A stretch of 64,000 nt of DNA, from assembly GCA_028829895.1 (NCBI GenBank), contig CM054182.1, positions 37,456,879 through 37,520,878 on the forward strand. Direction: 5' to 3'. Both the position numbers and the translations under genes were made by a program. This document shows, piece after piece, positions 5,501-43,600 of this stretch (its first letter is position 1; every line of letters begins with the position of its first letter). The stretch comes from Sinotaia quadrata (lineage: Eukaryota > Mollusca > Gastropoda > Architaenioglossa > Viviparidae). Under the pieces are notes generated by a model, which was not told the DNA's origin, did no database searches, and was given only the letters and a program-made list of their open reading frames with translations.

Positions 5501-8500
5501 TTTAAAGAAGTAGTTATAAAAATGTTTCTTCAGCCATAATTATACATATTCTGTACATTCACTCATCAAAGAGTAATTCTACCAATTCTACTGAAATCTG
5601 AGTTCATTTACTGTAAAAAAAACTTTCTTGTGCAGCAGTTTCAGCGATTTCTTTCATATACTGGATGATGACATTTACATATATCAACTTTTTCTAATCT
5701 CTTCAGCATTGTTGCTTTGTTAGTGTATAAATGACTTCTAAGAATACTTTGACTTGTTATAGTAAACCTTCTCCACTTAGTAGAGGCTCTAACTGGATGG
5801 GAATAAATCTCAATTCTGTCTTTATAAAAGTAAAGTACTTAGGACTGTATACAAGCAAAAGAAAATGAGAAATATGCTAATTCCGTGAATACATTTAACA
5901 AACTTTCACAATATGCTCCAACGCTTACCTGCCTCCTTGTCAATGTATTCAAGGTCACCTGGTGGTTTCATCGATCTCAACTTGTTAGGAGTCAGACTCC
6001 AGACATGGATGTTTGAATCTTGCAGTCCTGCTGCCATCATGCTGGAATCATCTGTGAAGTCCACACATGTAACTCTGTTTTGCAAATAAAAGAAGAACTG
6101 GAATTTAATCATGTACAAAAGTAATTGGAAGCTTCCAACAAAAATGACTATCTAGTATCAGATGTTATCTGCCCATTAATGTCCCACATGCATAGATTTT
6201 TTGACTAGTTAACTTCTACTTTGCATAAAGAAATGGCTTTTATGGATGCTTTAAAACAAACATTTTAACTGTTAACTACTGTTGAGAATTATCAAGATTG
6301 ATTTGTGAATCAACATTTCTATAATACTTCAAGAAGATGAAAAAATGTAAAACAAAACATATTGTCTGAAAGGAAATAATTGGTTCTGGGATATCTGCAT
6401 TCCCGTGGCACTGAATTAAATTTTAAAATAAATTAGTTACTTTGAAAAAAAGAAAAAATGTTTATAAATAGCTATAACTAGAATTCCTATTGTTTATAAA
6501 AAATATTTAAGTGTAAAGTATGAATGGGAATTACACATATAATGGAAGGCCTCTTCCAGGGAAGATAAATGAAAGCTCACCAGCAGATGGTCAAATGAGT
6601 AGCCAAAAGTTTCAATTTAAATGGTTTACAACTATTCCTAAATTCCAAGCAGGTAAAATGAAAGCCCATTTAGATCTTTCTCTCCGGAGTGACACAAAAT
6701 TTGACTGAGGATATGATATGCCCATTGAATTGAATGTAACAGCAAGCTTTGACCTATAACCATTAAAAAGTGGCAACTTCCAATCTCTTTATTTCAAACA
6801 ACCATATCTCCCCCCTCCTTTTTAAAAACTATTGCTATAGGACCCGTAAAAGGATTAAAGCATCTAACACCATGCCAGTGATGAAACAAATTCAATTTGT
6901 TCAAGTACACCATTAAAGTGACATAACTTCCAACAGCTGCAATGCATAACAATGTCACATGGCTGAACAATCACCTTTGCAATCCTGCCTTCATAAGATC
7001 CATGTGTGCGAAACTTGAAATTTGGCTTTGGATGGAAGACCAACACAAAAGGCTGTCTAAAGTTCAATCAGTTTCTTTGGAATTTGTAACACATATGCTA
7101 GCAATATAATTATCCAAGCCTTCACCCACGTGAATAAGGCTATCAGAATTAGCATGGTTTTCACTGACTTTCTGAGATCTATCAGGATTTGGGGGATTAA
7201 AAAGACAAGGGGAAGGGAAGATGTATACCTGCCTGTTGTTTCAAGTGACTGAAAAGATATCTACTGCATACATGGTCTGATAAAAAAACAAGACAAACAC
7301 CCAATAGCCAATGGTACATTTTGTGGCAGAGATCTATGTGAGGTCTGACGGTCCTAGAGAAGGGAAAATTTTACTTGGAAAGACTGCCTGCTATCACATT
7401 CAGTTGTGTCATGCTTGGATATTTCTGCCGGTGCACCATAACAGGATCTATGTGAAGAAAAGTCATGAACCGATGATATGAATTGGGGAACGGGTATTAG
7501 ACATATACTAACCTCTCATAAAAGTTGAGGGAATGTGTATTAGCCATATACTAACCCCTAGTAAGAGTTGAGGGAATGTGTATTAGCCATATACTAACCC
7601 CTAGTAAGAGTTGAGGAATGTGTATTAGCCATATACTAACCCCTAGTAAGAGTTGAGGAATGTGTATTAGCCATATACTAACCCTTGTAAAGGTTGAGGA
7701 ATGTGTATTAGCCATATATTAACCCCTTGTAAAGGTTGAGGAATGTGTATTAGCCATATACTAACCCCTAGTAAGAGTTGAGGAATGTGTATTAGCCATA
7801 TACTAACCCCTTGTAAAGGTTGAGGAATGTGTATTAGCCATGCCTAGTAAGAGTTGAGGAACATGTATTAGCCCCTAGTAAGAATTGAGGAACATTAGCC
7901 ATATACTAACCCCTAGTAAGAGTTGAGAAATGTCTATTAGCTATATACATCCCCCTTAGTAAGAGTTCAGGAATGTGTATTAGCCATATACTAAATCCTA
8001 GTAAGAGTAGAGGAACATATATTAGCCATATATTAAACCCTGGCATGAGTTGAGGAAAGTGTATTAGTTATATACTAAACCCTGGCATGGTTTGGGGAGC
8101 ATGAATTAGCCATATTACTAACCCCTGACATGAGTTGAGGAATGTATAGAAACAGATAGATGGAAGATGCTCTGCACTAAGCTTGACACGCTTCAATGCC
8201 TCTCTGTATGCAGTCACCTTTTCAACTTTGTCTTGGTCTTTTCTGAAAATAAAGAACAAAAAACCCTTACCTGTGTAGTTAAAAAAGTAAAAAACAAAAA
8301 ACAAATGTAATAATAGAAATACCAAAAAAAAAATAACATAAAATCCTAACAAACAAGAAATTCTAAACAAAGGGGAATGACTTTCAGAAAAAGTACTGTA
8401 TTTTTAAAAGTTCTTATTAAGAACTCAACATTTTATCCCTGCTCTTTTTCTGCATGACATCTATTTGGTACACTGCCAACAATGCATCTAGCATATCAAG

Positions 8501-40600: not shown

Positions 40601-43600
40601 GGCATGAAGAGTCTGTCTGGAATATGGCGCACTTGTGCGTGATGGTTAGGCATTTGTGGAGAGTAGAATGACGTAATGATAGAAATTGCACTTCATTATT
40701 AATTCTACGCATGCTAGTTTGTGTTTACCAATCAGAAACAAGAACCCTTTTGCTTGGAATGCGATTCTTGGAGAATACGACCAAGGTAGCACTGACGGTC
40801 ACGAGAAGCTAGTGAAATTGGACACACTTATCATTCATAGTGGCTTTAACCAGGTCAGCTATCTATCTATCTATCTATCTATCTATCTATCTATCTATCT
40901 ATCTATCTATCTATCTATCTATCTATCTATCTATCTATCTATCTATCTATCTATCTATCTATCTATCTATCTATCCTTTCCGAAATTTACCCTTTCTTGT
41001 GTACGCACGTGTAAGTGCATTTGTGCCTATTTGTGCGCGTGCTCCTCTGTCTGTCTGTCTGTCTGTCTGTCTGTCTGTCTGTCTGTCTGTTTGGTCAGGA
41101 TATATTTTTCTTTGGTTGTTTTACTGGGATAATTGATGAATACGTGGGTTTTTCCCCATCGTCTTTCTGTTGATTAAATTTCTTTGATGCATTGAATAGC
41201 TTCACCTCCCCCACTAACTCTCAGACGCACATATACACACATTCTGTCAAACACTCACGTTGACAGGCAGTATTCTGATTTCTTTGTTTTAGATGAAGTC
41301 CCAGCAATTTTCTTTCCTTAGTACAATTTATGTAAGCGCTGCTTGTTTACATTTTGAATCCTCTATGAATGTCTGAAACATGACGAACTTACCGTAATGT
41401 GTGACATTGACATTGACATTGGTTCATGTACAGAAGTACGGTAACGATGTGTGACATTGACATTGGTTCATGTACAGAAGTACGTAACGATGTGTGGCAT
41501 TGACATTGGTTCATGTACAGAAGTACGTTAACGATGTGTGACATTGACATTGGTTCATGTACAGAAGTACGGTAACGATGTGTGACATTGACATTGGTTC
41601 ATGTACAGAAGTACGGTAACGATGTGTGACATTGACATTGGTTCATGTACAGAAGTACGTAACGATGTGTGACATTGACATTGGTTCATGTACAGAAGTA
41701 CGGTAACGATGTGTGACATTGACATTGGTTCATGTACAGAAGTACGGTAACGATGTGTGACATTGACATTGGTTCATGTACAGAATTACGGTAACGATGT
41801 GGCCATGCTGAGGATCGCCACAACCAACGTGGACGTATACAGTCGCTATGTGCGTCCAGTGTGTTTGCCGGACAATGGCGAGTCTTTCCAGGGTATCACA
41901 TGTACAGTCACCGGCTGGGGAGCGGCAGTCAATGGTATGTAGGTTAATTTTGTTGTTTAAAGTTACGAAAGCAGGCTGAACGAAGAAAATATACCATCCT
42001 TCCATCGTCACCATCACATCATTCTAAGAATATTGTCACAACCCCCCCCCTTCCTCCTCACCACCCTCACTCCACCATGTTCTCCTCATCCTTATTTCTC
42101 AACCTCATGTTTGCCTAATCCCAATCAACAATTCTGTCCACTGTTTAACCGCCAATCTCTCCATTCATGCACGTTTTTCATCACGCATAACACGACGCAT
42201 TTCGCCTTGTATAAAATACGATGACCTATCTCGCCTTGTATAAAATACGATGACCTATCTCGCCTTGTATAAAATACGATGACCTATCTCGCCTTGTATA
42301 AAATACGATAACACATCTCTCCATGTATAAAATACGATAACACATCTCTCCATGTATGAAATACGATAACGCATCTCTCCATGTATGAAATACGATAACA
42401 CATCTCTCCATGTATGAAATACGATAACGCATCTCTCCATGTATGAAATACGATGACGCATCTCTCCATGTATGAAATAAGAATACGCATCTCTCCATGT
42501 ATGAAATACGATGACGCATCTCTCCATGTATGAAATACGATGACGCATCTCTCCATGTATGAAATACGATGACGCATCTCTCCATGTATGAAATACGATG
42601 ACGCATATCTCCATGTATGAAATACGATGACGTATCGTACCTTTTCAGGTGGCAGTGGAACTCGATACTTGTACAAAGGAAACGTCCCGCTAATTTCTAA
42701 CGAGGTGTGCAGTTACCTTTTGGACCGTACCATTCCAGAGGGCGAGATATGTGCAGGACAGAAATTAGGCGGCGTTGATGCGTGCCAGGTACTTACTCTA
42801 CTTCTATGTAATTAAAGGGAGGGAAGGAGAGCGTGTGAGCAGATAAACGGTTTGAATATGTATCGATTTGCAAACAATGCTGTTTCAAGAAATTAATACA
42901 TTAGCGGCATACTCGAGATGCTTTTGAAATAATGAATGAATTTATTTTATCTTTGCACAAATCAAATCTTTTAAAAGCCGGAATGTGAAGTCTAAGGTTA
43001 TCATATTTCAATTATAAGCTGTAGATCTCTTACATCTCATATTATATATACCAGTTAGAGGTGTAATCTTATTAATTTCATATTTTAGTTATCAGTAGTA
43101 GACCTATTGTACCTCATATTTTCCTTATTAATGGCAGATCTGTTATATTATCACAATTTAGTTAGCAGCAGTAGATTCATATATGGCTATCAGCAGTAGA
43201 CTTGTTATTTAGCTAACCGTAGTAGATCTTTATATCTCACATTAAGTTATCAGTAGTAGATCTAATATATTTCACAACATAATTGTTATTTTTAGGTATA
43301 TCTCATATATAAACCCAAATGACAGAAACCTTTCAGAACCTTTCTAATATGAACGACAAATTCGAAACTAATTTAAAATTTGGAGTGTGTGTGTGGCAGT
43401 AAATTTTCCTATCCATATTTTAAAATTAAATTGTTATATAAGTTGTTAATTTCTCAGAGTAACCCGACCTTAGGCACTCCTTATGATGGTATTTTGAAAG
43501 TGTCTGAGTCGAAGTAAACAGAATATACTAGAGATGATGGTATTTTGAAAGTGTCTGAGTCGAAGTAAACAGAATATTGTAGAGATGATGATGAAATACA

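Follow-up and report, generated by a model that had tools for sequence, protein, structure and literature searches.

Tandem arrays resembling amphioxus mirages span splice junctions of TAF5 and a serine protease gene in the snail Sinotaia quadrata

Mirages are known from amphioxus, where they occur in Adh3 and in the globin genes BflGb6 and BflGb9 (PMC3087553), with troponin C and PGBD5 added by PMC3902484; according to the available text of PMC3087553, they give regular products in reverse transcription polymerase chain reaction. No mollusc mirages were found in our literature search, which covered few subscription papers, and the available part of PMC3862624 reports nothing but simple repeats in cone-snail introns. 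Here we describe minisatellite arrays that span exon-intron junctions of TAF5 and a serine protease gene in 64,000 nucleotides of the Sinotaia quadrata genome (contig CM054182.1, positions 37,456,879 to 37,520,878; hereafter the window). The initial annotation knew of no named system like them, but they match mirages as the available text of the two reports describes these. We regard the arrays, with a probability of roughly 0.78, as minisatellites whose founding unit straddled an exon-intron junction by chance, and thus as by-products of local duplication that splicing is predicted to tolerate.

The window belongs to a 984-Mb assembly of 26 contigs, to which we added 240 kb of flank (5 kb thereof N), so that 304 kb were examined in total. 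It contains most of TAF5 on the minus strand and one serine protease gene, from start to stop codon, on the plus strand. The identification of TAF5 rests on a PDB match with TFIID subunit 5 (E=3.7e-9) and on orthologs that are up to 80% identical, the best named ones coming from the caenogastropods Littorina, Babylonia, and Batillaria (75% each). The protease has a 72% identical relative in Batillaria, for which the S1 peptidase domain PF00089 is listed, and in that genus the nearly adjacent numbers of the two genes, on contigs listed with equal length, suggest that their neighbourhood is conserved. One set of exon models was drawn up manually, with reading frames and splice signals as its basis, and then compared with orthologs; a second set came from a spliced protein-to-genome aligner written for this analysis, with ortholog proteins as its sole guide. 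At every array-bearing junction the aligner chose the true junction and none of the copied splice sites (decoys), and it completed TAF5 via the flank. Its deviations were a protease exon 7 donor that was 9 nt short (ortholog P0121), a missing protease exon 1 together with an exon 2 start that was 4 nt early (ortholog P0123), and a last exon that was 12 nt too long in an incomplete TAF5 run. The numbering of TAF5 exons 8 and 10 used by the initial annotation is valid once the exon at 17361-17429 is counted.

Three arrays in the window are real and span splice junctions, as the initial annotation had claimed, and Tandem Repeats Finder (TRF) recovers them with units of 42 bp (TAF5 exon 10), 70 bp (protease exon 3), and 44 bp (protease exon 6; Table 1). 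Both model sets place the true junctions at 8123 (donor), 38283, and 41784 (both acceptors). In each array the copies occupy the intron side and the true junction is the terminal copy; the exon contributes 23-26 nt to the unit in TAF5 exon 10, 19 nt in protease exon 3, and 18 nt in protease exon 6. The TAF5 decoy units are mostly 42 bp long, two being shorter and the sixteenth partial, and all 15 aligned TAF5 orthologs run across the exon 10 junction free of inserts. The protease exon 3 array consists of three decoy units of 66-70 bp, two 37-bp subunits without a splice site, and the real copy. Each decoy unit of the exon 6 array carries TTCATGTACAG/AAGTACG (the slash marks the junction), which places decoy acceptors at 41434, 41478, 41521, 41565, 41609, 41653, 41696, and 41740. 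That the units keep the GT or AG, as was also claimed, is true of exon 6, where TACAG is present in eight of eight decoys, although this retention carries little weight because the units are 97-98% identical. It is true of only part of the other two arrays: GTTAGT is found in only eight of the 16 TAF5 decoy units, and the acceptor in three of the five upstream units of the exon 3 array, both 37-bp subunits lacking it.

Table 1. Positions of junction-spanning and junction-abutting arrays and of the exons that they adjoin (window coordinates)
Feature	Coordinates	Strand	Details
TAF5 exon 10 donor array	7483..8145	-	16 decoy units plus real junction unit; TRF, unit alignment
TAF5 exon 10	8123..8242	-	Donor CAGGG/GTTAGT at 8123/8122; ends ..FYTFLNSCQG; PDB match, orthologs
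Protease exon 3 acceptor array	37936..38301	+	TRF end 38287; 38301 from unit alignment
Protease exon 3	38283..38377	+	QCGVTF...FPWQ; exon model, ortholog-guided spliced alignment
Protease exon 6 acceptor array	41396..41801	+	Eight decoy units of 43-44 bp before real site; TRF from 41408
Protease exon 6	41784..41934	+	NYGNDVAMLR...; exon model, spliced alignment
Array pair in TAF5 exon 18 intron	-4675..-4086 and -3614..-3229	-	Donor-spanning array and distal second array
TAF5 exon 8	9641..9756	-	Acceptor at 9756; divergent extra copy in intron
Divergent copies of TAF5 exon 8 acceptor	9757..9935	-	One alignment-supported; second weaker, by eye
29-bp array	28880..29328	+	Last partial unit is pyrimidine tract of protease exon 2 acceptor; TRF to 29317
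37-bp array	39153..39344	+	Ends exactly at protease exon 4 acceptor; abutting, zero exon bases
29-bp array	42194..42648	+	Last partial unit runs into pyrimidine tract of protease exon 7 acceptor; TRF to 42636

Amplification across splice junctions recurs outside the window. An automatic spanning test on the ortholog-guided models flagged a fourth strict case at the donor of TAF5 exon 18, where, after ACATGT/GTAAGTATC, the exon end recurs every ~39 nt, each unit combining ~32 exon nt with 7 intron nt. The same intron contains a second array with a derived 36-nt unit, ~850-1400 nt downstream, and holds 20 decoy GTAAGTA sites. Compared with the rest of the intron, the 32-mer at the exon end scores 29 (shuffled maximum 14).

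On comparison with related proteins, the exon is the source of the copied bases, because relatives conserve these bases and the decoys carry derived changes. The QCG codons of protease exon 3 are present in all ten relatives that cover them (two of 12 aligned without that stretch), and the two most distal exon 3 decoys have a common derived 4-nt loss within the QCG bases. Similarly, the real exon 6 copy reads AAT, and all eight decoys read AAG. Inner units appear to have been homogenised with the boundary copy left out, as seen in exon 6 from the real copy against the decoys and in exon 3 from the distal 4-nt loss; the TAF5 exon 10 array, which has no gradient with distance, speaks against this.

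Splice sites were scored with weight matrices derived from the gene models' own sites, and many decoys are as strong as the real site. In the TAF5 exon 10 array, eight of 28 decoy GTs equal or exceed the real donor in score, and in exon 6 each of the eight decoys ties with the real acceptor. One of the three copied exon 3 acceptors scores above the real one and two score 1.8 bits below; among all AGs of that array, six of 28 are within 1 bit of the real acceptor or above it, most of these being other AGs of the unit. Modelled use of a decoy led to a premature stop in every case (3/3 in exon 3, 8/8 in exon 6, and the eight top-scoring TAF5 exon 10 decoys), and past the real donor of TAF5 exon 18 the frame, read by eye, directly meets a stop. 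Globin pre-mRNAs with a duplicated 3' splice site offer a comparison for acceptors, though not for donors: in the available text of PMC5389562 the distal site won at each of the three exon lengths given to the upstream copy (14, 55, or 205 nt), which fits the exon-proximal acceptor probably winning here.

Most simply, the arrays are mirages produced by ordinary minisatellite birth in array-rich introns and kept on the intron side by selection on the exon. The unit combines 18-32 exon nt with roughly 7-55 intron nt, and the real junction is the terminal copy. The junction would first have been copied in a short tandem duplication, through either replication slippage or break repair. Similarity within the arrays suggests that the inner copies were later expanded and homogenised by slippage or unequal exchange, while coding constraint would have held the exon-side copy fixed. 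The placement on the intron side needs no special cause, because arrays that disturb exons would be lost. The real site would win by exon definition, as the only one that adjoins the complete exon, and nonsense-mediated decay would clear the products of occasional decoy use.

Further junctions have weaker or merely abutting arrays. For TAF5 exon 8, which the initial annotation listed as a weaker case, the junction 60-mer scores 19 against the intron (shuffled maximum 17, 0/500), but the case is undetected in the 40-mer test (score 13). Its copies are present neither in the TRF output nor in the 30/26 mask; the looser 30/24 mask covers 9829-9926. At protease exons 2 and 4, arrays do lie at the acceptors, as that annotation also had it, but only abut them, with the terminal unit in the pyrimidine tract and no exon included. 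For exon 4, the last 30 intron and first six exon bases score 29 against the array (shuffled maximum 17), and for exon 2 the score is 16 (shuffled maximum 15, 0/500). Another abutting array, at the exon 7 acceptor, was absent from the initial list (score 16; shuffled maximum 14, 0/500). The junctions of protease exons 5, 8, and 9 have no comparable match to upstream sequence.

A tandem cluster of S1 protease paralogs (g2 to g5) is located downstream of the window gene, at window coordinates of about 65-160 kb. Their models begin at exon 3, and the comparison covers the introns after it: all six boundaries between exons 3 and 9 carry introns in g2 and g4, and five do in g5, whose exon 3/4 boundary is unclear. 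The exon 6 array thus did not create its intron, because the paralogs have introns at corresponding places. The protease exon 8 donor of the window gene, at 46014, is apparently GC (CCAG/GCAAGC), which the spliced alignment supports; it is GT in g2, g4, and g5. At the exon 8 donors of g2 (78301 on) and g4 (118894 on), a k-mer mask shows an array that begins 1 nt inside the intron and includes no exon bases. The remaining member, g3 (about 84,600-99,800), is a recent copy of the window gene with internal deletions; its listed matches to that gene are mostly 92-97% identical and, simple repeats and arrays aside, range from 86 to 97%; among the matches listed, none of at least 120 bp is to protease exons 2, 3, 5, 6, or 7. 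One deletion in g3 has its breakpoint at minisatellites, because the start of an intron 1 array is fused directly to the exon 4 acceptor array. That array, which abuts its junction and does not strictly span it, has six exact units in g3 against three in the window, a difference that would fit array turnover.

The region is very dense in minisatellites. TRF returned 118 rows for the window, many of them overlapping, and tandem repeats cover ~30% of the protease region and 7% of the TAF5 region (6-43% per 20 kb over the 304 kb, microsatellites counted in). That junction arrays are more common than chance, as had been proposed, is correct in that the repeats are not chance similarity (no matches among 42 exon-internal controls), but a preference for junctions is doubtful. 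In the test that the initial annotation had proposed, intron matches were found for three of 42 junction 40-mers (8.3 expected) against 104 of 450 intron-internal 40-mers, which speaks against such a preference; three other window designs of this test gave 2-4 of 42 against 6.8-7.4 expected, and an earlier run without the TAF5 exon at 17361 gave 3/40 and 89/448. Rotation of array coverage within introns (40-nt windows, 20 introns, both genes) did not show junctions to be enriched either, with five observed against 6.5-6.6 expected under the two stricter masks and six against 8.1 under the loosest. Both tests overstate the expectation, because real arrays cannot run through exons. With random seeds, two arrays with at least 10 exon nt (by TRF coordinates) were observed against 0.75 expected (P=0.17), and three with at least 1 exon nt against 0.95 (P=0.065).

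A fairer null, but one applied to a neighbourhood that was selected for looking odd, is to place complete arrays within introns and let them extend up to 25 nt into the exon. In the window it gave three spanning arrays against about 0.6 expected (P about 0.02), and by mask three against 0.55 (P=0.016), three against 0.77 (P=0.035), and one against 0.53 (P=0.42). For the mask-based tests, microsatellites (period up to 6) were masked and mask segments below 60 bp removed. One placement run used a hand-edited TRF list, in which units below 20 bp were omitted, two rows merged, and the exon 3 end taken from the alignment; a two-copy repeat at the protease exon 9 acceptor is outside this list and inside the masks of the by-mask test. 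Overall, array seeding fits random placement or nearly so, and the excess of junction-spanning arrays is weak at most.

Several results nevertheless weigh against chance seeding followed by tolerant splicing. Extended to 38 introns, the placement null gave four spanning arrays against 1.09 expected under the 30/26 mask (P=0.023) and against 1.41 under another (P=0.054). Array ends lie within 30 nt of five of the 21 window acceptors, where 0.97 would be expected (P=0.001, 30/26 mask). Units of the TAF5 exon 10 array show no gradient with distance in their identity to the real copy (rho 0.22, P=0.41), and the order of expansion is therefore not readable from it. Splicing at the real sites is predicted from the gene models, and the globin result in the available text of PMC5389562 does not show exon length to be deciding, because the outcome was equal for all three lengths.

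Over the settings that were run, the acceptor bias in the window amounts to 4-5 acceptors, of 20 or 21, against 0.7-1.4 expected (P 0.0001-0.006). As a general rule it was rejected, none of the 17 acceptors in a replication set having an array end nearby (0.9-1.1 expected). This set comprises 17 introns from the TAF5 3' end, g2, and g5, one of which (g5 exons 3/4) has an uncertain exon start. Its donors had three array ends against 0.9-1.1 expected (P 0.06-0.10); under the 30/26 mask the expectation is 0.94 for acceptors and donors alike, with P=0.06 for the donors. Once g4, which closely copies g2, is included, the donor count is five against 1.25-1.57 (P 0.006-0.013).

These numbers bear on a process aimed at junctions, in which boundary DNA, by way of R-loops or a paused polymerase or replication fork, would be duplicated more often than other intron DNA. 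We consider it unlikely, even though the four strict cases are found in two unrelated genes and one is outside the window, mirages recur in lancelets according to the available text of the amphioxus reports, and the 38 introns have nine array ends within 30 nt of either junction where 3.8 were expected (P=0.007, 30/26 mask; 9 against 4.8, P=0.037, and 8 against 3.6, P=0.021, under other masks). The excess of spanning arrays over those introns shrinks to two against 1.05 (P=0.28) under the strictest mask (40/34), and the replication set taken by itself gives three ends near either junction against 1.9 (P=0.29) and one spanning array against 0.52 (P=0.42; both 30/26). Moreover, the 40-mer comparison points in the opposite direction, and all data come from one neighbourhood. 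Because the excess is weak and mask-dependent, these counts decide neither for a junction-aimed process nor against it.

Selection that maintains decoys beside real sites, as a reservoir, a buffer, or an expression brake, was also proposed initially and is very unlikely. The strength of the decoys and the 20 sites after the TAF5 exon 18 donor would suit it, but with GTTAGT in only half of the TAF5 exon 10 decoy units, nothing points to such selection: the donor core of these units is no better kept than the rest (retention 0.74 vs 0.85 with gaps taken as losses), in part of the exon 3 array the amplified subunit has no splice site, every decoy modelled leads to a premature stop, and the 18 acceptors of the paralogs g2, g4, and g5 are free of arrays within 30 nt under the 30/26 mask.

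Insertion of a dispersed repeat or transposon beside the exons, whose ends would then have been recruited from it, would fit the abundance of minisatellites throughout the region, but is highly improbable given that relatives conserve the copied residues without such a repeat in the protein, that each array has a different unit, and that the paralogs have the intron positions in common. Equally improbable is an artefact of assembly or of misplaced exon ends: assembling arrays is difficult and we used the assembly sequence alone, but the two gene-model approaches agree at the array-bearing junctions, TAF5 orthologs cross the exon 10 junction without inserts, and the differences among units show that the arrays are not one stuttered copy.

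Rfam and tRNA scans of the window gave no matches, and a Pfam search of ten selected reading frames gave nothing relevant to splice-junction arrays. One frame (62657-62944, minus strand) has a weak Pfam match to the hAT dimerisation region, below the cut-off (E=0.0064), and may be part of a hAT-type transposase, to which the reading frames at 62657-63691 (minus strand) may also belong, including two adjoining frames without a Pfam match. Outside the window, an open frame of 1445 codons (window coordinates -59771..-55437, minus strand) is gag-pol-like and resembles, by eye, a Gypsy-type long terminal repeat retroelement.

The arrays extend a little-known phenomenon, reported only from lancelets in the literature that we found, to what is likely a second phylum, where about 300 kb hold four strict cases. 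With up to 20 near-identical splice sites, of which all those tested except the exon-proximal one would disrupt the protein, such natural arrays offer a ready test of spliceosomal choice among equal sites. They would also allow the possible role of junctions as mutational hotspots to be settled by counting within a single genome. A bolder view, which we hold to be doubtful, is that junctions are true hotspots of minisatellite birth and that mirages arose independently in molluscs and lancelets; they would then be a recurrent, taxon-wide source of decoy sites and of new exons or introns in array-rich genomes, with the TAF5 exon 18 intron, whose first array would have re-seeded the second downstream, as a snapshot.

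In the comparison with known systems, two kinds of duplication at splice sites resemble the snail arrays in part. Minisatellites in human segmental duplications likewise occur at exon-intron boundaries (available text of PMC2812944), but there they alter exons or help create new introns in recent paralogs, whereas the snail exons are unchanged and the protease introns are common to the paralogs. Intron gain by tandem genomic duplication, in the AGGT model, also starts from a short tandem duplication that copies a splice signal (available text of PMC3443670); unlike there, no new intron is seen in the protease, and the paralogs share its introns but lack these arrays. The likeness to amphioxus mirages, as far as the available text of PMC3087553 and PMC3902484 describes them, is closer. 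In both, a tandem repeat crosses the exon-intron boundary (here at TAF5 exons 10 and 18 and protease exons 3 and 6), donors or acceptors are affected (here two of each), many but not all units carry the AG or GT (here 8/16 for GTTAGT, 3/5, and 8/8 decoys), and cluster boundaries are left out of homogenisation, similarly to the exon 6 and exon 3 arrays. The snail arrays differ from the lancelet ones in their host genome, in unit length (36-70 bp, where Adh3 has 10-72 bp and the globin genes 150-160 bp), and in the second, distal, re-amplified array in the TAF5 exon 18 intron.

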